A DNA stretch of 20,648 bases. Source: a virus. The notes beneath the pieces are model-generated. The model had not been told where the DNA came from. It saw only the letters and a list, made by a program, of their open reading frames with translations, and did not search any database. Shown one piece after another: positions 4,000 through 14,190 of this stretch (the stretch's first letter is position 1; the number at the start of each line of letters is the position of its first letter). Position numbers and translations under genes: made by a program. The stretch is taken from positions 1 to 20,648 of the IMG/VR virus record IMGVR_UViG_3300007344_000338; one strand, 5' to 3'.

Positions 4000-4362
4000 A
4001 TGATGGACAATCAGGCATATAATTCAAACGGCCTGACGGACGAGCAGCGCAAAAGTCTTGAAAAAAGAGATTGGCGAGACAAGGTTCTTTGGCTTTTTGG
4101 CCAGGGTGACTATCACCAAGAACGCCAGCGCCAAGATTTTCTGGACGAAAACGAGCGTCAGCGCCAAATGAGCGGTCTTGCTCAACAGAAGCGTAAGCAG
4201 GGCATCATAGATCAGGCTATGGCAGAGGTTCAGGTGCCCTACCAAATGGGGCAGACAGGTTATGACCCCACTATGGGGCAGCGCATGGGGATGCTATCAG
4301 GCGCCATTAACGGTCTTGGTTCTTATGGTTTGAGCGGTCCTGTCCGTCGGGTAAGAAGGTAG
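4000..4362 (+). CDS. Small virion-block protein sharing its N-terminal module with the next gene
   Basis: A 120-residue protein. Two adjacent ATGs (4000 and 4003) are possible starts, and AGGGGG at about 3990-3995 serves either. Residues about 11-47 (LTDEQR, then RDWRDKVLWLFGQGDYH, then RQRQDFLD) are nearly the same as residues about 11-48 of the following 427-residue protein. After that the two proteins diverge. The remainder here is Gln/Met/Gly-rich and ends in a basic tail (VRRVRR). It may be a shortened paralogue of the next gene or a small protein carrying the same virion-targeting or interaction module. No known domain name could be assigned. Confidence 0.7.
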   Translation: MMDNQAYNSNGLTDEQRKSLEKRDWRDKVLWLFGQGDYHQERQRQDFLDENERQRQMSGLAQQKRKQGIIDQAMAEVQVPYQMGQTGYDPTMGQRMGMLSGAINGLGSYGLSGPVRRVRR

Positions 4363-4371
4363 GGTAATATC

Positions 4372-5655
4372 ATGGCAGATCAGAGGTACGGTGCAGACGG
4401 CCTGACAGACGAACAGCGCCAGTACGCTAAAGAAAACCGTGATTGGCGGGATCGTGTTTTGTGGTTGTTTGGTCAAGGTGATTATCACAAGAACCGGCAG
4501 CGCCAAGAATTTTTGGACTACAACCGAGCTGTTGCCCAGCTTCAGGCGGACCAAGCGCGGGGCGCGGCATCACGCGCTTTGGAAACGACGCGCCAGATTG
4601 ATGCGGATCAAGACTTTTTAGCGACAGCAGCTAGCCAGTACGCGGCAACAGGACAGGCTTTCTCTCGCGAAGCTGTTGACGCAGCAAAGCGCCTTGGTGT
4701 CACGCTGGATGATACTATGGTTGGCGGCGCCGTCACCAATCGAACCGTCTTTACCCCCGATCAAGAGGCAATGCTTGGTAATCTACCGTCTATGGGGAAA
4801 TATGTTAATGACATAAGGTCAGAGGGAAGTGGTCCTGCTGCCCGGTATGCCCGTTCATTGAGGGTTGCCGGTATCTCTCCTGATACTGTTGACCGATACA
4901 CACCTCCCCTTCGCGAAGGGCAGGTTTTGAATGATGACTTCACGGTGGCGACCGTTCCCAACTTTGATGAATCCGCATCTAACACGGCAGGCATGATCGC
5001 AAGCGCGGAGGCAAAGGCGCGGGCAGACCAAGATCCTATCCAGGTTATGGACAAGAGAACGGGTGAAATAGTTATCGTTCCGAAGACAGAAGCAGTGCGG
5101 AACCGGAACTATGTAGACGCCTCTACGGGCCGTGAGTTGCGGGCAGAAGACGATGCTTCGAAACTGAAGGCGGCTGCTAGCGCCCAAAGTAATGCTATGA
5201 TGAATAGCTTTATCACTAATGCCCTGAATAACATCACGCCATATACGACAGGTTTTGGGGCGGCATTGCAGTGGGTTCCAGGCACAGATGCCAAGAGGCT
5301 TGCTGGAGAACTTCAGGCCATTATCGCCAATATTGGGTTTGACCGCCTTCAGTTGATGCGTGACCAGTCTACAACAGGTGGTACGCTGGGTAATGTCAGT
5401 AACATTGAATTGAGCATGTTGCAGTCTGTGAGCGGTACGTTTGACCAGGCCAATGATCCTAACCAGCTTGCTTATAACCTGACCCGGTATGGCAAGGTGC
5501 TGAACGCCATCGTGCATGAAGGGCTGGAGGCCGCACAGCGGGCCTACATGGAGCCATATGATCCGAAACGGAGTTATGTGGAAGAAGGCAGAATGGAAAG
5601 AGAATTGATGGTTACGCCGGACACAACCAATGTAACCGTGCGCCGTGTAGAATAA
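4372..5655 (+). CDS. Putative internal virion protein with shared N-terminal module
   Basis: A 427-residue protein starting 9 bases after the previous stop, with a GTAGGG stretch upstream of the ATG. Residues about 11-48 duplicate the module of the preceding gene (DGLTDEQRQ, RDWRDRVLWLFGQGDYH, RQRQEFLD). The rest is Ala/Gln/Asp-rich, predicted mostly helical, with no enzymatic motif. Its place between the Ala-rich protein and the 677-residue Gly-rich protein fits the internal or ejection cluster of short-tailed phages. Function beyond a structural role cannot be read from the sequence. Confidence 0.65.
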   Translation: MADQRYGADGLTDEQRQYAKENRDWRDRVLWLFGQGDYHKNRQRQEFLDYNRAVAQLQADQARGAASRALETTRQIDADQDFLATAASQYAATGQAFSREAVDAAKRLGVTLDDTMVGGAVTNRTVFTPDQEAMLGNLPSMGKYVNDIRSEGSGPAARYARSLRVAGISPDTVDRYTPPLREGQVLNDDFTVATVPNFDESASNTAGMIASAEAKARADQDPIQVMDKRTGEIVIVPKTEAVRNRNYVDASTGRELRAEDDASKLKAAASAQSNAMMNSFITNALNNITPYTTGFGAALQWVPGTDAKRLAGELQAIIANIGFDRLQLMRDQSTTGGTLGNVSNIELSMLQSVSGTFDQANDPNQLAYNLTRYGKVLNAIVHEGLEAAQRAYMEPYDPKRSYVEEGRMERELMVTPDTTNVTVRRVE

Positions 5656-8505: not shown

Positions 8506-9725
8506 CAACATCACTGACAGACGAACAACTACAAGAAGCTGTAGATTTATTGGCGCGGCATTCTAGCGTCAGCGAGGCTTCGCGGCACACAAAATGGCCG
8601 TGCAAACAGCCTGCCTTTTCACATCGCCTAAAGTCTGCACGTGACGCGGGATTTGTGCCATCTCCGGGATCAATCCCTATCGAGCCTGACGAACTGGACG
8701 TTGTAAAGCAGGAGTTGCGCGATGCGCGGCTTCTTCTTACGCAGATCAAAAGCGAGGAGATTACCCGCGCAAATGTGCGGTCATGGGTTGGTCTTGTATC
8801 GGAAAAAGAAAAAGCGCCGCCAAAATGGATAGTTAAGCCAAGCAAACGCGCCGGTCTGGGTGTGCCAACACTGTTTGCATCAGACTGGCATTGGGGCGAG
8901 GTTGTAAATCCCGATGAGATTCATGGCGTCAACAAGTTCGACCTGGAGATTGCCAAGGCGCGGTGCAGGTCGCTAATCAATACGGCTGTTGGCCTGCTGA
9001 CTAGCGAATTTAAAGACCCCGATTACCCCGGCATTGTCTTTGCTCTGGGCGGCGACATGATCACGGGCGACATTCACGAAGAACTATCCAAGACCAATGA
9101 CGCGCCTATAATGCCGACGGTGGTTGACTTGTTCGAGAATCTTATTTGGTGCATATCAACCCTGGCGGACAGGTTTGGGCGGGTCTATGTTCCGTGTGTT
9201 ACCGGCAACCACGGCAGGAACACAAAGAAGGTTCAAGCGAAAGAACGCAGCGCCACCAATTTTGATTGGCTGGTCTATTGCCTTCTGGAAAAGCATTTTT
9301 CAGGGGATGACCGAATTCAGTTTAATGTTGCCGAAGGTTCCGACTGCCTGTTTAAGATATACGATCACGAATATCTATTGTCACACGGCGACCAGTTCAG
9401 AGGCGGTGATGGCATGATCGGGCCGCTTGGCCCTATCACGCGCGGGCGACACAAGAAGGCATCGCGCAACGCGGCAATTGACATGCCGTTTCAGACAATG
9501 ATCGTCGGCCATTTTCATACTTTGATGCAATTGCCTAACCTGATCGTCAACGGCTCGCTCAAGGGTTATGACGAATATGCGTTTCAGGGCAATTTTTCGT
9601 ATGAAGTCCCGGCGCAGGCACTGTGGATCACTCACTCTGATCGCGGCATAACGCACCAGATGCCTATTTACCTCGAAGACAAAAAGAAAGGGGCGTCTAA
9701 GTCATGGGTGAGTTGGACAAAATAA
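8502..9725 (+). CDS. Calcineurin-like metallophosphoesterase with N-terminal HTH-like segment
   Basis: A 407-residue protein. The two-metal phosphoesterase motifs appear in order: SDWHWGE (D128, H130), GGDMITGD (D185), TGNHGR (N236, H237), LSHGD (H295) and VGHFHT (H337, H339). These residues bind the two metal ions and hydrolyse phosphoester bonds in this superfamily. The first about 60 residues (EAVDLLARHSSVSEASRHT) look like a helix-turn-helix of the kind that recognises DNA or pairs in replication and recombination proteins, followed by a helical linker. The substrate is unknown; nucleic acid is plausible given the HTH. The gene starts on the stop of the membrane protein (ATGA) and overlaps the endolysin by 22 bases. 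Confidence 0.85.
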   Translation: MTTSLTDEQLQEAVDLLARHSSVSEASRHTKWPCKQPAFSHRLKSARDAGFVPSPGSIPIEPDELDVVKQELRDARLLLTQIKSEEITRANVRSWVGLVSEKEKAPPKWIVKPSKRAGLGVPTLFASDWHWGEVVNPDEIHGVNKFDLEIAKARCRSLINTAVGLLTSEFKDPDYPGIVFALGGDMITGDIHEELSKTNDAPIMPTVVDLFENLIWCISTLADRFGRVYVPCVTGNHGRNTKKVQAKERSATNFDWLVYCLLEKHFSGDDRIQFNVAEGSDCLFKIYDHEYLLSHGDQFRGGDGMIGPLGPITRGRHKKASRNAAIDMPFQTMIVGHFHTLMQLPNLIVNGSLKGYDEYAFQGNFSYEVPAQALWITHSDRGITHQMPIYLEDKKKGASKSWVSWTK

Positions 9726-10117
9726 GGACTTCTGACGGCGGTTTTGTTGCGTGGCGTTGGGTGTCGTTCACGCCAAAAGAGATGCTTTGCCGTTGTGGTG
9801 AATGTGATTCCTTCGTTGACGTTCAATTTATGGATTCCCTGCAATGGCTGCGCGATGCCTACGGCAAGCCTATGCCAGTGACCAGCGGCCATCGTTGCGA
9901 GGCGCACAACAGGGCGGTCGGCGGCAGTGGAACCAGCGGCCATTTAACGGGCCGTGCAGCCGATATACAGGTAAAGTGGGGCGATGCCCTAGACCTTTTG
10001 ATCTTGGCCCATAAACGGGGCTTCACGCGCTTTGGCGTCAACCAAAAGGGGCGTTATGAAGGGCGGTTTATCCATCTGGGGATGGATAGGACAGAACCAA
10101 CAATTTGGAGCTATTAA
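9704..10117 (+). CDS. Endolysin, M15-type zinc D-Ala-D-Ala peptidase
   Basis: A 137-residue enzyme likely to cut the peptide cross-links of peptidoglycan for host lysis. The M15 signature is clear: VTSGHRCEAHN, then GGSGTSGHLTGRAADI with zinc ligands H80 and D87, and a third ligand H124 in FIHLGMD. The N-terminal FTPKEMLCRCGECD is the usual opening of the short M15 family in phages, with Cys residues near the start. There is no signal peptide, so a holin is needed to release it. AAAGGGG lies about 10 bases upstream of ATG 9704, inside the phosphoesterase gene. The next gene begins on its stop codon (TAATG). Confidence 0.9.
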   Translation: MGELDKIRTSDGGFVAWRWVSFTPKEMLCRCGECDSFVDVQFMDSLQWLRDAYGKPMPVTSGHRCEAHNRAVGGSGTSGHLTGRAADIQVKWGDALDLLILAHKRGFTRFGVNQKGRYEGRFIHLGMDRTEPTIWSY

Positions 10118-10272
10118 TGGGCGAATTAATCTATCTGGATGAGTACAGGAAAGAAAAGAGGCAGGCGACGAAAGAAGAACTCGACGGAATCATTGAATCC
10201 ATCTGGGCGGCGTTGTATTTCCGCTTTGACGCTACAATCGCCCCTGTTTCGCCAGAGGAAGATACCGAATAA
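10117..10272 (+). CDS. Small hypothetical protein after the endolysin
   Basis: A 51-residue protein, starting at ATG 10117 on the endolysin stop codon (TAATG), with GGAG at 10107-10110 six bases upstream. The product is acidic and charged: MGELIYLDEYRKEKRQ, a helix around EELDGIIESIWAALYFRFDA, and an acidic end. No membrane segment and no known domain are visible. It shares coupling and ribosome-site quality with its neighbours, which supports it being real. It may be a regulator or partner of lysis, but that is only suggested by position. Confidence 0.6.
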   Translation: MGELIYLDEYRKEKRQATKEELDGIIESIWAALYFRFDATIAPVSPEEDTE

Positions 10273-10304: not shown

Positions 10305-10466
10305 ATGAACACCTTGATTGATCGACTTAAAGAACCATCGACCTGGGCTGGGCTTGCTGGCTTGGGACTGTTGTTCGGCATGAGTCAGGATGAGTTTGAT
10401 ATTTACGTTGGCGCTATTACCGGCGCACTGGCGTTTGTGGCAATCATCCTGAAAGAGTCCAAGTGA
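10305..10466 (+). CDS. Two-helix holin candidate
   Basis: A 53-residue protein with AAAGGG about 10 bases before ATG 10305. The form is typical of a common class of small phage holins: a charged start (MNTLIDRLKEPSTWAG), a first hydrophobic helix (residues about 14-26, AGLAGLGLLFGM), a turn with acidic residues (SQDEFD), a second helix (residues about 34-50, VGAITGALAFVAIIL) and a charged end (KESK). Holins of this kind make pores that let the endolysin reach the wall. It lies one small gene downstream of the M15 endolysin. Among the membrane proteins of this block it is the best holin candidate. Confidence 0.7.
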   Translation: MNTLIDRLKEPSTWAGLAGLGLLFGMSQDEFDIYVGAITGALAFVAIILKESK

Positions 10467-10690
10467 TATGTCGAGTTGGAGCAATTGGCCTCGCTGGTCT
10501 GCTTGGCCTAAGTGGATGCGCTGGCCTCGGTGGCCTAGAATGCAACCACGAAAGGACGATCTACGCCCTGGGGATGGTGGCACCAAGCCAAGCGGCAATC
10601 GTGACGAAGATAACAGAACGGAGAATTTGTGATGCGAGTTACACTGACGATCATGGGGGCGGTGGCCCTGTTTCTAACAGCACTAACTGA
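10463..10690 (+). CDS. Small lipoprotein (possible o-spanin-like), overlapping a Trp-periodic ORF
   Basis: A 75-residue frame with a GTG start at 10463 overlapping the holin stop. Its first 19 residues form a lipoprotein signal: a short positive start, a hydrophobic Gly/Leu helix, and the lipobox LSGC with C19 as lipid-attachment site. Gly occurs at every third position in residues 6-24. Small outer-membrane lipoproteins near endolysin and holin often belong to spanins, so a role in outer-membrane disruption is possible; the inner-membrane partner is not obvious. The frame runs 59 bases into the next gene, longer than other overlaps here. A second ORF in another frame (10468-10632) uses the same DNA, and I cannot say from sequence alone whether both are made. 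Confidence 0.5.
   Translation: MICRVGAIGLAGLLGLSGCAGLGGLECNHERTIYALGMVAPSQAAIVTKITERRICDASYTDDHGGGGPVSNSTN
10468..10632 (+). CDS. Trp/Pro/Arg-periodic small ORF, alternative frame of the lipoprotein
   Basis: A 54-residue ORF with ATG 10468, one base after the holin stop, ending TGA 10630-10632 on which the next gene's ATG lies (TGATG). Its first 24 residues carry Trp at positions 4, 7, 10, 13, 16, 19 and 22, joined by Pro-Arg, Pro-Lys or Ser-Ala pairs (for example WPRW, WPKW, WMRWPRWP). The remainder is hydrophilic and charged. Junctions on both sides match the tight coupling of this operon better than the lipoprotein frame does. The composition recalls Trp/Arg-rich membrane-active peptides, but the Trp spacing could also be a by-product of the Gly-every-third pattern in the other frame. 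Confidence 0.4.
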   Translation: MSSWSNWPRWSAWPKWMRWPRWPRMQPRKDDLRPGDGGTKPSGNRDEDNRTENL

Positions 10691-11138
10691 CGAAGCCTTT
10701 GCGGGCGACAAAAACTCAATCTATTTCGAGCAACAGTCTGGCTTGGCCCGTGTGGGTTTCAGTGGCAAGGCGTGTGGCAGCTTTCCAATGCCCAGCGTTT
10801 CGCTAGATGGTGAACGGTCGTGTGCGCGGGTGCCGCTTACATATATGCACAAAAAGACTGACGCTAACGGCAACAAGACGAAGGAAGTTTTGAAGCTGGA
10901 AGATTACCACGACGAAACCTGCACTCGTGGCGTTGATGCCGCTGGCAACCCGACTGAAACCTGTTCAATCAAGGTGGTGTCTGGTCGTTCTGTTGACGGC
11001 AACTTTGGCCGTCGCCAGACATTCAGCATTCTTGGTGCGTTTGGTGAAGGTGACAGTTCTTCCGGCACTGACCGCACCTTCGCTACTGGTCTGGCTGGCG
11101 CCAGGCGCTCAACACAGCCTGCTAATTCTTCGGACTAG
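10632..11138 (+). CDS. Secreted periplasmic protein of unknown function
   Basis: A 168-residue protein. The start is ATG 10632 with GGAG at 10620-10623, 8 bases upstream; a GTG at 10629 is less likely. Residues 1-24 form a Sec signal peptide (MRVTLTIMGAVALFLTAL) with a cleavage motif AFA before G25. The mature part is polar, with four Cys in two pairs (KACGSF and ERSCAR; DETCTR and TETCSI) that could form disulfides in the periplasm, and a Gly/Ser-rich end. No domain is recognised. Being the last gene of the late operon, it may act at the envelope in lysis or exclusion of other phages; that is inference. Confidence 0.6.
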   Translation: MRVTLTIMGAVALFLTALTDEAFAGDKNSIYFEQQSGLARVGFSGKACGSFPMPSVSLDGERSCARVPLTYMHKKTDANGNKTKEVLKLEDYHDETCTRGVDAAGNPTETCSIKVVSGRSVDGNFGRRQTFSILGAFGEGDSSSGTDRTFATGLAGARRSTQPANSSD

Positions 11139-11226: not shown

Positions 11227-11511
11227 TCACCATTTCACCTTATCGGCCCAATAGGCGGCTGACATTTTTCCTTTGGCAATATTCTTGCCGTGGCGTGCTT
11301 TAAAGCTCGCACGTTTGCGCTTCATCGCTTGGCTTTCGCCCGCCTTGGGCTTGCCAGCGGTGTTGGCTCCTTGCTGGCCAAACCGAATTAGCTTTACCTT
11401 ATCGCCTTCTTTGGCAAGCACCACATGGCTTTTTTTCTTGTGGCTGGGCGTGCGCTTGGGTTTGTTGTAGCCCTTTAGGCCATTCTTCGTTAATCGGCTG
11501 TCTTTTGCCAT
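11227..11511 (-). CDS. Conserved small basic phage protein
   Basis: A 94-residue very basic protein (many Lys, few acidic residues). The start (MAKDSRLTKNGLKGYNKPKR) and end (KARHGKNIAKGKMSAAYWAD) match a pattern I recognise from many unrelated phage genomes, in a family annotated only as unknown function. The middle carries KSHVVLAKEGDKVKLIRFGQQG. The strong positive charge suggests binding to nucleic acid. AGGTG lies a few bases before the ATG. It is the last gene of the leftward block, ending next to the hairpin at 11192-11225. No catalytic function can be proposed. Confidence 0.65.
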   Translation of the reverse strand: MAKDSRLTKNGLKGYNKPKRTPSHKKKSHVVLAKEGDKVKLIRFGQQGANTAGKPKAGESQAMKRKRASFKARHGKNIAKGKMSAAYWADKVKW

Positions 11512-11809: not shown

Positions 11810-12004
11810 TCATGTCCATTGTTTTTTGTCTATGTTGTCAGTAATGACCTGGCGCACTGCGCTGGGCGTTGTCAGGGCTGGATAATGTTCGCACAAGGCG
11901 TCGATCAGGTCAGCCGTCAAATATACTGAAACCTTCTTCCCCGCCTGTTTCCCCTTTGGCTTGCGGCCCGCGCCTTGGCGATAGCCGCCACGGTTTTCAG
12001 TCAT
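11810..12004 (-). CDS. RHH-like DNA-binding protein (intact copy)
   Basis: A 64-residue protein with a basic Gly-rich start (GGYRQGAGRKPKGKQAGKK), much like an AT-hook, followed by a strand-helix-helix pattern (VSVYLTADLIDALCEHY, then SAVRQVITDNI) typical of ribbon-helix-helix proteins. Such proteins bind DNA as dimers and often repress their own operon. AAAGG lies about 8 bases before ATG 12004; the gene starts 8 bases inside the end of the upstream methyltransferase gene. A second, broken copy is found at 12982-13116, in the same position relative to the second methyltransferase, because the region is tandemly duplicated. Confidence 0.6.
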   Translation of the reverse strand: MTENRGGYRQGAGRKPKGKQAGKKVSVYLTADLIDALCEHYPALTTPSAVRQVITDNIDKKQWT

Positions 12005-12926
12005 TGTATTGCCTTTCTGCTTCTAATATAGCGTTGCCGATCATCTCCGGTATCTGCGGGACAACGGCATTGCCTAGCGCCTTGAGACGTTTTGCGCGGT
12101 TTTTTGTGATCGTGGTAGTGCGGGCTATTCCGTATTCCCAAGTTCCGTCCAGCCAGGCGGAAACCCCATGAGGGGTTCGACCCATTCCGGGTTCAGGTTT
12201 CCTGATCCTTCCAGCGCCTGCATTTTGTGGTCCAGCCGGTCGTTCGTTCTGTCCCTTCCGTTCTTGCGTGTCAGGGCTGCTTCGCTCGACCCCTTGTACA
12301 TGGTCGCCGTTGGTGTCGGATACATCTTCGGCCATGTTTTCGGGTTGTTCACTTGGGCCGGTAGAGAAGAAGCGACATTCTCCGACCTGTCCCCCATCCT
12401 CTTTGTAAATGTCGAGTTGCTCTCGCCCCGCCCCGTGTCGCTGGCTTTGGGCGTGAGCCACAATCCAGAGCCTGTCGCGTCGGTGCGAGGCACCGAGGGC
12501 GCAAGCTGGAATAAGGAACGTCCTGCAGGCGTAGTCTTCACTTTCCAAGTCAGAAAGCACAGCGTCGAGGCCCATGCTGATGTGCCCAGCAACATTTTCG
12601 CCAATGACCCAAGCGGGCCGGTGTTCTTTGATGCAAGCAAACATCGATGGCCAGAGGTGGCGGTCATCGTCCGCGCCTTTTCGCTGCCCGGCTGTAGAGA
12701 AAGGCTGGCAGGGGTATCCCCCTGAAATAACGTCAACTGGTCCGTCATGAGTTAAGTTCCTTACATCTTCATAAATGGGTACATCGGGCCAATGCTTCCG
12801 CAGCACTTGCTGGCAGAACGGCTCTATCTCGCAGAAGCCTACAGTCTCGAACCCGCCCGTTCGTTCAAGGCCCAGTGAGAACCCGCCGATGCCGCTGAAA
12901 AGATCAAGAACCTTTAGTTTTTTCAT
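11997..12926 (-). CDS. DNA (cytosine-5)-methyltransferase, copy 1
   Basis: A 309-residue enzyme that would transfer a methyl group from S-adenosylmethionine to cytosine C5 at a specific site. Motifs in order: I, DLFSGIGGFSLGL (8-20); IV, GGYPCQPFSTAGQRKG with catalytic C73; VI, GENV (109-112); VIII, HRRDRLW (148-154); X, LGNAVVPQ (about 284-291). The region between VIII and X, where the target-recognition domain lies, is polar and low in complexity here. A second ORF (12125-12748) occupies most of the gene in the +1 frame. It is 30 residues longer than copy 2. It likely protects phage DNA from host restriction or alters host expression; that role is inferred. The start ATG 12926 overlaps the stop of a truncated upstream gene (TAATG). 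Confidence 0.9.
   Translation of the reverse strand: MKKLKVLDLFSGIGGFSLGLERTGGFETVGFCEIEPFCQQVLRKHWPDVPIYEDVRNLTHDGPVDVISGGYPCQPFSTAGQRKGADDDRHLWPSMFACIKEHRPAWVIGENVAGHISMGLDAVLSDLESEDYACRTFLIPACALGASHRRDRLWIVAHAQSQRHGAGREQLDIYKEDGGQVGECRFFSTGPSEQPENMAEDVSDTNGDHVQGVERSSPDTQERKGQNERPAGPQNAGAGRIRKPEPGMGRTPHGVSAWLDGTWEYGIARTTTITKNRAKRLKALGNAVVPQIPEMIGNAILEAERQYND
12125..12748 (-). CDS. Overprinted ORF in the +1 frame of methyltransferase copy 1
   Basis: A 207-residue ORF wholly inside the methyltransferase gene. A Shine-Dalgarno AAGGAA lies 8 bases before ATG 12748. It opens with MTDQLTLF, continues with GSEKAR.MTATSG, MLLGTSAWAS and LTWKVK.TPAG, then has LTPKASD and PTPTA motifs, and ends in LNPEWVEPLMGFPPGWTEL. 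The same order of motifs is found in the matching ORF of copy 2. From memory this pattern is a family met in phage genomes alongside cytosine methyltransferases; the end resembles the motif IX region of some single-frame C5 enzymes (LSP.FVEWMMG.P.GW). It may be a partner or target-recognition subunit. Expression is not proven. Confidence 0.7.
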   Translation of the reverse strand: MTDQLTLFQGDTPASLSLQPGSEKARTMTATSGHRCLLASKNTGPLGSLAKMLLGTSAWASTLCFLTWKVKTTPAGRSLFQLAPSVPRTDATGSGLWLTPKASDTGRGESNSTFTKRMGDRSENVASSLPAQVNNPKTWPKMYPTPTATMYKGSSEAALTRKNGRDRTNDRLDHKMQALEGSGNLNPEWVEPLMGFPPGWTELGNTE

Positions 12927-13029: not shown

Positions 13030-13116
13030 CAAATATACTGAAACCTTCTTGCCCGCCTGTTTCCCCTTTGGCTTGCGGCCCGCGCCTTGGCGATAGCCGC
13101 CGCGTTTTTCAGTCAT
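12982..13116 (-). pseudogene. Truncated second copy of the RHH-like gene with a chimeric tail
   Basis: A 44-residue frame from ATG 13116. The first 30 residues match the intact RHH-like protein (MTEKRGGYRQGAGRKPK, then KKVSVYLT), keeping the basic AT-hook-like part and the first beta strand. The remaining 14 residues (VKASRSNLTDPPST) come from an out-of-frame reading of the adjoining gene remnant. The helices needed for a full fold are lost. The ATG and its position 8 bases inside the end of methyltransferase copy 2 are unchanged, so a short basic peptide might still be made. Confidence 0.75.
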
Positions 13117-13948
13117 TGTATTGCCTTTCTGCTTCTAGTATCGCATGGCCTATCATTTTGGGTATTTGTGGCACTACAGCATTTCCGAGCGCCTTCAATC
13201 TATTTTTGTCCAGTTTACGGGAAACCCCATCATTTCTTCCACGAACAGCGGGGACAGTGGGCCATCCCAATGCATTGACAAGTTGATCTGCTTCCCCTTC
13301 TCCAGTCGCCTTCTGATTGCTGGGTTCTTCGGCCCACCCCTGTCCCGATTGTCGGATGCTGTTGGTGTCGGCATGAACGCGCTTGCTATTGAGCGCATTA
13401 TCCTTCCCCCCTTGTCCAGATTGGCTAGGCTTTTCCAATTGACGTTGTAATCGTGATGCTCCGATGCCGCTGGTGTGGGCAACAATCCAGAGCCTGTCGC
13501 GTCGGTGCGAGGCACCGAGGGCGCAAGCTGGAATAATGAATGCCCGGCAGGCGTAGCCTTCACTTTCCAGGTCAGATAGCACATCGTCGAGGCCCATGCT
13601 GATGTGCCCAGCAACATTCTCTCCAATGACCCAAGATGGCTTGTGTTTTTTGATGCAATCAAACATCGCTGGCCAGAGGTGGCGGTCATCTGCCGCGCCT
13701 TTTCGCTGCCCGGCTGTAGAAAACGGCTGGCAAGGGTATCCTCCGGTAATAACGTCAACTGGTCCTTCATGGTGTAACTCCCTAACATCTTCGTAAATGG
13801 GTACATCAGGCCAATGCTTACGCAACACCTGTTGACAGAACGGCTCTATCTCGCAAAAGCCGACAGTCTCAAAGCCGCCTGTGCGCTCTAGTCCCAGCGA
13901 AAAGCCGCCGATGCCAGAGAACAGGTCAAGCACTTTCAGTTTTTCCAT
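13109..13948 (-). CDS. DNA (cytosine-5)-methyltransferase, copy 2
   Basis: A 279-residue C5-cytosine methyltransferase. I start it at ATG 13948, which overlaps the upstream stop (TGATG); a GTG one codon earlier is possible. The motifs match copy 1: DLFSGIGGFSLGL, GGYPCQPFSTAGQRKG with catalytic C73, GENV, HRRDRLW and LGNAVVPQ. The first about 155 residues and last about 30 are close to copy 1; the segment between motifs VIII and X is different and about 30 residues shorter, so its target sequence may differ. A +1-frame ORF (13195-13770) overlaps it as in copy 1. The two enzymes together could modify two different sites on phage DNA. Confidence 0.9.
   Translation of the reverse strand: MEKLKVLDLFSGIGGFSLGLERTGGFETVGFCEIEPFCQQVLRKHWPDVPIYEDVRELHHEGPVDVITGGYPCQPFSTAGQRKGAADDRHLWPAMFDCIKKHKPSWVIGENVAGHISMGLDDVLSDLESEGYACRAFIIPACALGASHRRDRLWIVAHTSGIGASRLQRQLEKPSQSGQGGKDNALNSKRVHADTNSIRQSGQGWAEEPSNQKATGEGEADQLVNALGWPTVPAVRGRNDGVSRKLDKNRLKALGNAVVPQIPKMIGHAILEAERQYND
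13195..13770 (-). CDS. Overprinted ORF in the +1 frame of methyltransferase copy 2
   Basis: A 191-residue ORF from ATG 13770, preceded 8 bases upstream by AGGGAG; an earlier in-frame start exists but lacks this site. It starts MKDQLTLL, keeps GSEKARQMTATSG, MLLGTSAWAS and LTWKVKATPAG, has LLPTPAASE and MPTPTASD, and ends PLSPLFVEEMMGFPVNWTKI. The start lies at the same place relative to the methyltransferase start (178 bases) as in copy 1, and the motifs agree though the spacers differ. Retention of start, ribosome site, open frame and motifs in both copies argues that this protein is made. Confidence 0.7.
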   Translation of the reverse strand: MKDQLTLLPEDTLASRFLQPGSEKARQMTATSGQRCLIASKNTSHLGSLERMLLGTSAWASTMCYLTWKVKATPAGHSLFQLAPSVPRTDATGSGLLPTPAASEHHDYNVNWKSLANLDKGGRIMRSIASAFMPTPTASDNRDRGGPKNPAIRRRLEKGKQINLSMHWDGPLSPLFVEEMMGFPVNWTKID

Positions 13949-14190
13949 CACCCTAAACCCAACGCTTCCGCAACCTTGTCTTCATTCATAACGTCATCGC
14001 GGCTCATGTAGACGGCAGGGCCATCCAATACGGCCTTAAAGCCTTCGCCGTGGGCACGCTGCGCGTACCATTGGCCATGGTCGTTGCAGTTTATGTATGC
14101 GACCAGGTTCGACATTGAGCCGGTGTGACCTGCGTACATATGATACTGATTTCGGTAGTTGTTCAGAATGATGTGATTTGTGGTGGTCAT
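13948..14190 (-). CDS. Small hypothetical protein at the head of the leftward operon
   Basis: An 80-residue protein, first gene left of the operator, with a perfect AAGGAG ribosome site 7 bases before ATG 14190. It is rich in Asn, His and Tyr (NNYRNQYHMYAGHTG, then CNDHGQWYAQRAHGEG) and ends YMSRDDVMNEDKVAEALGLG. No known domain. Its stop overlaps the start of methyltransferase copy 2. A truncated copy of its 3' end sits before methyltransferase copy 1. As promoter-proximal gene with the best ribosome site, it should be made in quantity early. Confidence 0.6.
   Translation of the reverse strand: MTTTNHIILNNYRNQYHMYAGHTGSMSNLVAYINCNDHGQWYAQRAHGEGFKAVLDGPAVYMSRDDVMNEDKVAEALGLG

Follow-up and report, generated by a model that had tools for sequence, protein, structure and literature searches.

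The window analyzed here is a 20,648-nt stretch of viral DNA (positions 1 to 20,648 of the record IMGVR_UViG_3300007344_000338). In what is presumed to be its late operon, downstream of an endolysin gene, two small genes, A and B, overlap in different frames:

9704 to 10117, plus strand: endolysin of the peptidase M15 type (Pfam Peptidase_M15_3, E 7.7e-24; phrog_894 endolysin, E 2.5e-31)
10117 to 10272, plus strand: 51-aa ORF coupled to the endolysin stop (TAATG), with homologues in contigs L002 and L005
10305 to 10466, plus strand: holin-like 53-aa membrane protein, recognized by its hydrophobic segment and its position after the endolysin
10463 to 10690, plus strand: gene A, lipoprotein with a lipobox, open in four phages and under purifying selection
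10468 to 10632, plus strand: gene B, Trp/Pro/Arg-rich peptide of 54 aa under purifying selection, its frame open in four phages and its Trp ladder conserved
10477 to 10539, plus strand: seven 9-base units, each starting with TGG, read as Trp in B and Gly in A
10632 to 11138, plus strand: gene C, secreted protein with a signal peptide and a conserved Cys, traveling with A and B

The holin-like protein has a weak match to the phrog_198 holin (E 0.025). The stop codon of its gene (TGA 10464-10466) is overlapped by the GTG of A and followed, after one base, by the ATG of B, the two starts lying 5 bases apart and straddling that stop. Downstream, the TGA of B overlaps the ATG of C in the TGATG at 10630-10634. 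With TGA-N-ATG upstream and TGATG downstream, B thus tiles the operon exactly, as had been anticipated by an earlier sequence-only reading of this DNA, according to which the junctions on both sides of the Trp-rich ORF fit the coupling of the operon (the endolysin and the 51-aa ORF are joined by TAATG). The lysis context invoked in the same reading was likewise recovered, in the form of the M15 endolysin and the small membrane protein, and one relative carries an unrelated endolysin close to this gene pair.

Gene A extends from the GTG at 10463 to the TGA at 10688-10690 and encodes 75 amino acids beginning with VICRVGAIGLAGLLGLSGCAGLGGLECNHERTIYALGMV. Gene B, relative to which A lies in the +1 frame, extends from the ATG at 10468 to the TGA at 10630-10632 and encodes 54 amino acids beginning with MSSWSNWPRWSAWPKWMRWPRWPRMQPRKDD. 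The approximately seven 9-base units with a TGG core that had been described are all present: TGG triplets are found at 10477, 10486, 10495, 10504, 10513, 10522, and 10531, a spacing of exactly 9 bases. This 7/7 run is the best in the whole window, the minus strand reaching at most four, whereas Markov-shuffled windows contain three to four of seven at best and never more than four. Reading the two frames directly confirms that the repeat puts a Gly at each third position in the signal peptide of A, which leads to the lipobox L-S-G-C (Cys codon at 10517-10519), and gives B seven Trp residues spaced by three, with Pro-Arg/Lys between them. Residues 1-29 of B contain these seven Trp along with seven Lys/Arg and no Asp/Glu, for a charge of +7; the C-terminus is acidic (−3 over residues 30-54). 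In a hydrophobicity scan, no membrane segment was detected in B, and the strongest hydrophobic segment of A is its signal. By our own criterion, no ORF other than A in the six frames of the 20.6-kb window has a lipoprotein signal; however, the same criterion finds such an ORF in 15 of 40 shuffled windows (about 4 in 10). The presence of A alone thus says little, and it is the position and conservation of the gene that carry weight.

Searches with A, B, and C all led to the same contigs, namely L001/L004, L002, L003/L005, and L006, the last of which was missed by the single-sequence A query and found by the other queries. L001/L004 shows no difference from the window in the stretch compared and was counted together with it, leaving four distinct sequences, hereafter the four phages (the window, L002, L003/L005, and L006). 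In all four, both A and B are open, of identical length, and retain their GTG and ATG starts, with a divergence from the window of 4-13% within the A/B overlap in the other phages. The outcome that would have contradicted the sequence-only reading, conservation of one frame and accumulation of stops in the other, was looked for in these four phages and did not occur. The B-to-C junction is also kept in the four, and in the three other phages a homologue of gene C, 81-85% identical to that of the window, lies directly 3′ of A/B. The lipobox, judged good at first sight, reads LSGC, LNGC, LGGC, and LSGC; in all four phages, a small ORF within the lysis cassette thus carries the lipoprotein signal by which an o-spanin is recognized (L-[SNG]-G-C, hydrophobic h-region, positive n-region). 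Where Arg4 of the n-region is lost (R to L), Lys2 is gained (I to K, outside B), and positive charge is retained. In B, the MSSWSNWP start and the Trp ladder are conserved, with seven, seven, seven, and six Trp residues, respectively.

In L006, the endolysin matches a different family (phrog_465, E 8.2e-36), and no homology exists between its holin-like gene and that of the window. Homology to the window starts at the end of the holin-like gene, and the AAGTGA-N-ATG junction is the same. The three genes A, B, and C have therefore remained linked next to differing upstream partners. The A/B overlap and its pair of closely spaced starts are thus maintained together alongside endolysins and holin-like genes of different kinds. 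Two relatives, L005 (2570-3007) and L006 (3725-4162), also encode, upstream of their lysis genes, a coiled-coil-like protein of 145 aa that has a membrane segment at its C-terminus; it was not found in the window and may be a separated spanin partner or a holin-associated protein.

Single-frame dN/dS is misleading within an overlap (for A alone, pN/pS is 0.9-1.5). We used instead a two-frame substitution model, in which each possible change is sorted by its effect in both frames and the rate is fixed from gene C. For the four sequences, the dN/dS-like ratio w was 0.34 for A (wA, p 3e-7) and 0.38 for B (wB, p 1e-7), and a run with three sequences, the same as in the controls, gave 0.41 and 0.35, respectively. 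In the controls, pseudo-frames in 38 windows of known genes, the alternative-frame ratio was at least 0.61 (median 0.92) and none of the 38 had p below 1e-3. Synonymous divergence is 0.33-0.55 in most neighboring single-frame genes (0.67 locally) and only 0.03-0.20 in B and 0.05-0.17 in A; the neighbors with low values are the L005 holin-like gene, which is unusually close to that of the window (pS 0.10), and the 51-aa ORF (0.16 in L002, 0.29 in L005). Thus, the check suggested by the earlier reading, conservation of each frame at synonymous sites, reveals purifying selection in both frames with the rate fixed from neighboring genes. RNA structure was considered as a cause of the constraint and rejected, folding of 10440-10640 being no stronger than that of shuffles (z 0.48).

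The constraint appears to be segregated along the overlap. Over the Trp ladder (B codons 1-24), the four sequences give wB 0.32 and wA 0.52, with wB falling to 0.19 when one block change in L006 is left out and ranging over 0.22-0.32 in the three- and four-sequence runs. Over the mature lipoprotein (B codons 25-54), the corresponding values are wA 0.23 and wB 0.44, with wA 0.23-0.27 over the two runs, and the synonymous sites of B show 0-2.5 changes in 20, as against 32-67% in nearby gene C. B therefore tends to be the more constrained frame along the ladder and A along the mature lipoprotein, an exploratory result, because both the split into halves and the exclusion of the block were chosen after viewing the alignment, and one that rests on few substitutions. 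A division of this kind, with each gene dominating one part, is known from the HIV tat/rev overlap (Fernandes et al. 2016, as discussed in PMC9119678), although A and B are phage lysis genes and their segregation involves only those few changes. Beyond the stop of B, gene A continues for 58 bases into gene C, so that over 10633-10690 it overlaps C and not B, its C-terminal codons also being read, in a third frame, as the C signal peptide; here C is constrained (w 0.13) and A weakly so (w 0.62, p 0.07).

It should be noted that a rate derived from the overlap itself leaves both frames short of significance across its full length (p 0.21 and 0.74). The selection result thus leans on the neighboring rates, and local recombination is the main loophole: by lowering divergence locally, it could mimic the dual constraint, a concern raised by the unusually low divergence of the L005 holin-like gene, and four sequences do not close this loophole. 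With the rate from neighboring genes, on which the statement depends, A and B constitute an overlapping gene pair with both frames open and under selection. We consider dual coding well supported, and the comparison of the four phages suggests that evolution protects both readings of this stretch of approximately 160 bases.

What the two products might do can be approached through known systems. Like A, the lipoproteins of two-component spanins (lambda Rz/Rz1, P2 LysB/LysC) are small, of the outer-membrane type, and encoded in a second frame over a small lysis-cassette gene; embedded or overlapped o-spanin genes are often missed by gene callers, and about 13% of the surveyed phages of Gram-negative hosts have no recognized spanin (PMC6139136). 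However, the partner differs, because B lacks an N-terminal membrane segment and hence is not an i-spanin. The arrangement differs as well: for about 70% of embedded o-spanins, the start lies close to the midpoint of the i-spanin (PMC6139136), whereas the starts of A and B are only 5 bases apart. No linked i-spanin was found, as no adjacent type II candidate passed the hydrophobicity scan; the coiled-coil protein of L005 and L006 was the sole candidate noted. Nor does A resemble a unimolecular spanin, since no C-terminal transmembrane segment was detected in it and its C-terminus, SYTDDHGGGGPVSNSTN, is hydrophilic.

In B, there is a likeness to disruptins, short cationic peptides thought to act on the outer membrane in lysis settings with no recognized spanin pair. 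The archetype, from phage phiKT, is an amphipathic helix (Holt et al. 2022, as described in PMC12819732), whereas B combines a Trp/Pro ladder with an acidic tail, the two being likened by description only. A disruptin was taken here to be a short cationic peptide of a phage without recognized spanins; in the present case, the genome is incomplete and A may itself be part of a spanin. Disruptins are described as so diverse that predicting them systematically is complicated (2026 paper, PMC12819732). B also shares with Trp-rich antimicrobial peptides such as indolicidin and tritrpticin a cationic stretch dense in Trp, Arg/Lys, and Pro (PMC6017362). Such peptides contain more than 25% Trp, often with Arg; in B, Trp accounts for 7 of the 22 residues at positions 4-25 and for 13% of all residues. 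B differs from them in its greater length, strict periodicity, and location in a phage operon; the likeness is one of composition, not kinship. Furthermore, many Trp-rich peptides cross membranes without lysing them (PMC6017362), and membrane disruption by B is thus not a given.

Considering the o-spanin form of A together with the likeness of B to membrane-active peptides and disruptins, we read the pair as an outer-membrane-disruption device consisting of an anchor and a cationic Trp peptide. With middling confidence, we propose that 10463-10690 is a dual-coded late lysis pair, in which an o-spanin-like lipoprotein overlaps a disruptin-like peptide, one piece of DNA probably carrying two tools against the host outer membrane. 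Re-initiation, localization, membrane activity, and the role in lysis are what we infer for A and B. Ribosomes finishing the holin-like gene at TGA 10464-10466 would restart either at the GTG of A or at the ATG of B; a GTG that overlaps the stop and an ATG one base past it suggest a single re-initiation site feeding two frames. A would be exported, lipidated at Cys19 and, with Ala as the next residue, sorted to the outer membrane, where it would act like an o-spanin, that is, as an outer-membrane-anchored lysis lipoprotein. B, having no export signal, might leave through the holin lesion, as endolysin does, and its Trp/Arg/Pro ladder could then bind and destabilize the outer membrane in the manner of a disruptin.

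More tentatively still, we suggest that the single 9-base repeat encodes both the lipoprotein export signal and a membrane-active Trp/Arg ladder, yielding an o-spanin-like anchor and a disruptin-like peptide from one re-initiation site. We know of no description of such a combined outer-membrane-disruption gene from one DNA. If so, a short repeat can serve two chemistries in two frames, a hydrophobic Gly/Leu export signal and a cationic Trp/Arg peptide. The locus provides a concrete candidate, amenable to testing, for how a little-known group of phages may disrupt the outer membrane. The notion, put forward in the sequence-only reading, that one lysis DNA yields two products is upheld insofar as both frames are open and constrained; the peptide and spanin roles it raised are conjectural, with neither a family for B nor an i-spanin having been found.

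Among the alternatives, the one that fares best, although we deem it unlikely, accepts translation of both frames and regards A as a conventional o-spanin with its i-spanin elsewhere in the genome, B being an accessory or regulatory peptide. In line with this, A stands alone as a lipoprotein in its lysis cassette, and L005 and L006 share the upstream coiled-coil protein with a C-terminal membrane segment. Yet that protein was not found in the window, where A is present all the same, and its topology is not the usual type II; moreover, an i-spanin is the normal overlap partner in spanins, and B is without a membrane segment. We consider it rather improbable that both frames are translated and A is a superinfection-exclusion or receptor-masking lipoprotein merely located in the late operon. 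Phage lipoproteins other than spanins exist, T5 Llp and phage Cor reportedly being examples with such functions, and the size and lipid anchor of A would fit; however, the coupling to the holin-like stop in two unrelated endolysin/holin settings and the presumed late operon agree better with lysis than with early exclusion.

The remaining alternatives deny one of the two genes. If only B were a gene, A would be the shadow of TGG CCN CGN codons, which read one base later automatically yield a hydrophobic sequence rich in Gly and Leu; as Trp has a single codon, the Gly residues of A follow from B. In simulations given B, A was open about half the time (10% for L005), with a lipobox in 1-14%, and over the ladder A changes freely in its amino acids (pN 0.13-0.19 versus pS 0.09-0.15 in the more distant pairs). 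Over the ladder, A could thus more readily be a shadow of B. The same does not hold for the mature domain, in which B alone does not account for the nearly frozen synonymous sites of its codons 25-54 and for the low wA; in addition, the start codon, lipobox, and n-region charge of A are all kept. We regard this possibility as improbable. In the opposite direction, B remained open in about 10% of simulations given A and carried about 2.4 Trp, compared with the 7 observed. The ladder requires T as the third base of seven A codons, which from phage codon usage has a chance of about 2e-4, and in the alignment of the four phages this T, the first base of TGG, is unchanged in 27 of 28 cells. Collectively, the T-ending codons, the retention of T, and the simulations make B hard to explain as a shadow of A. 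The T-position test is important because many Trp ladders found in other contigs by pattern scans resemble off-frame Gly-rich repeats, as judged from translations and not one by one; the test was devised after those ladders had been seen. Although such ladders lend it some color, the idea that only A is a gene and the Trp ladder an off-frame shadow of its Gly-every-third repeat is very improbable, given that the ladder T is kept while mostly free to change in A, that the differences at 10473, 10476, 10480, and 10482 (with 10481) alter A and leave the Ser-Ser-Trp-Ser-Asn of B intact, that B tiles the operon exactly, and that wB is low over the ladder.

Searches beyond the four phages yielded no further relatives of A/B, whether by family, profile, or tblastn searches or, among the matches listed, by DNA scans. 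Specifically, family searches of A, B, and C against PHROGs and Pfam gave no match, nor did PDB profile searches of A and C, or tblastn of A and C against the phage collection and of C against plasmids. The comparison of both products with phage proteins that had been called for thus recovered the same pair in the contigs of relatives and no family for either A or B. The AlphaFold models of A (pLDDT 44) and C (pLDDT 34) were poor and for this reason were left out of fold searches. In degenerate DNA scans (five TGG at 9-base spacing; W..WP..W..WP), the A/B family was, among the matches listed, alone in combining a convincing Trp ladder with a lipobox in the second frame, and distant relatives beyond these could exist. 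A profile search with gene C of 394 genomes of the Roseisalinus family and 385 of its class found none. The profile of A gave five weak matches in the 394 genomes of that family (E 0.004-0.009), which on comparison with A look like chance; the one in L391 adjoins an anti-sigma-factor-like ORF.

At the DNA level, the window segment 8400-11400 matches mainly Roseobacter, Celeribacter, and Synechococcus phages, in each case over short pieces. A small gene on the minus strand at 11227-11511 (phrog_7595) has DNA approximately 70-82% identical to stretches of phages of the same three groups, pointing to possible marine phage kin. Further downstream on the minus strand lie two tandem DNA methyltransferase genes (11997-12926 and 13109-13951; phrog_363). 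Inner ORFs in another frame of these genes (12125-12748 and 13195-13806) match phrog_1008 (E 5e-31 and 2.7e-29, respectively) and may represent a second, longer overlapping pair in duplicate; a Pfam search of the inner ORF at 12125-12748 gave no match. Finally, two adjacent genes on the plus strand (4000-4362 and 4372-5655) have a similar N-terminal stretch, GLTDEQR...RDWRD.VLWLFGQGDYH...RQRQ, as if duplicated.
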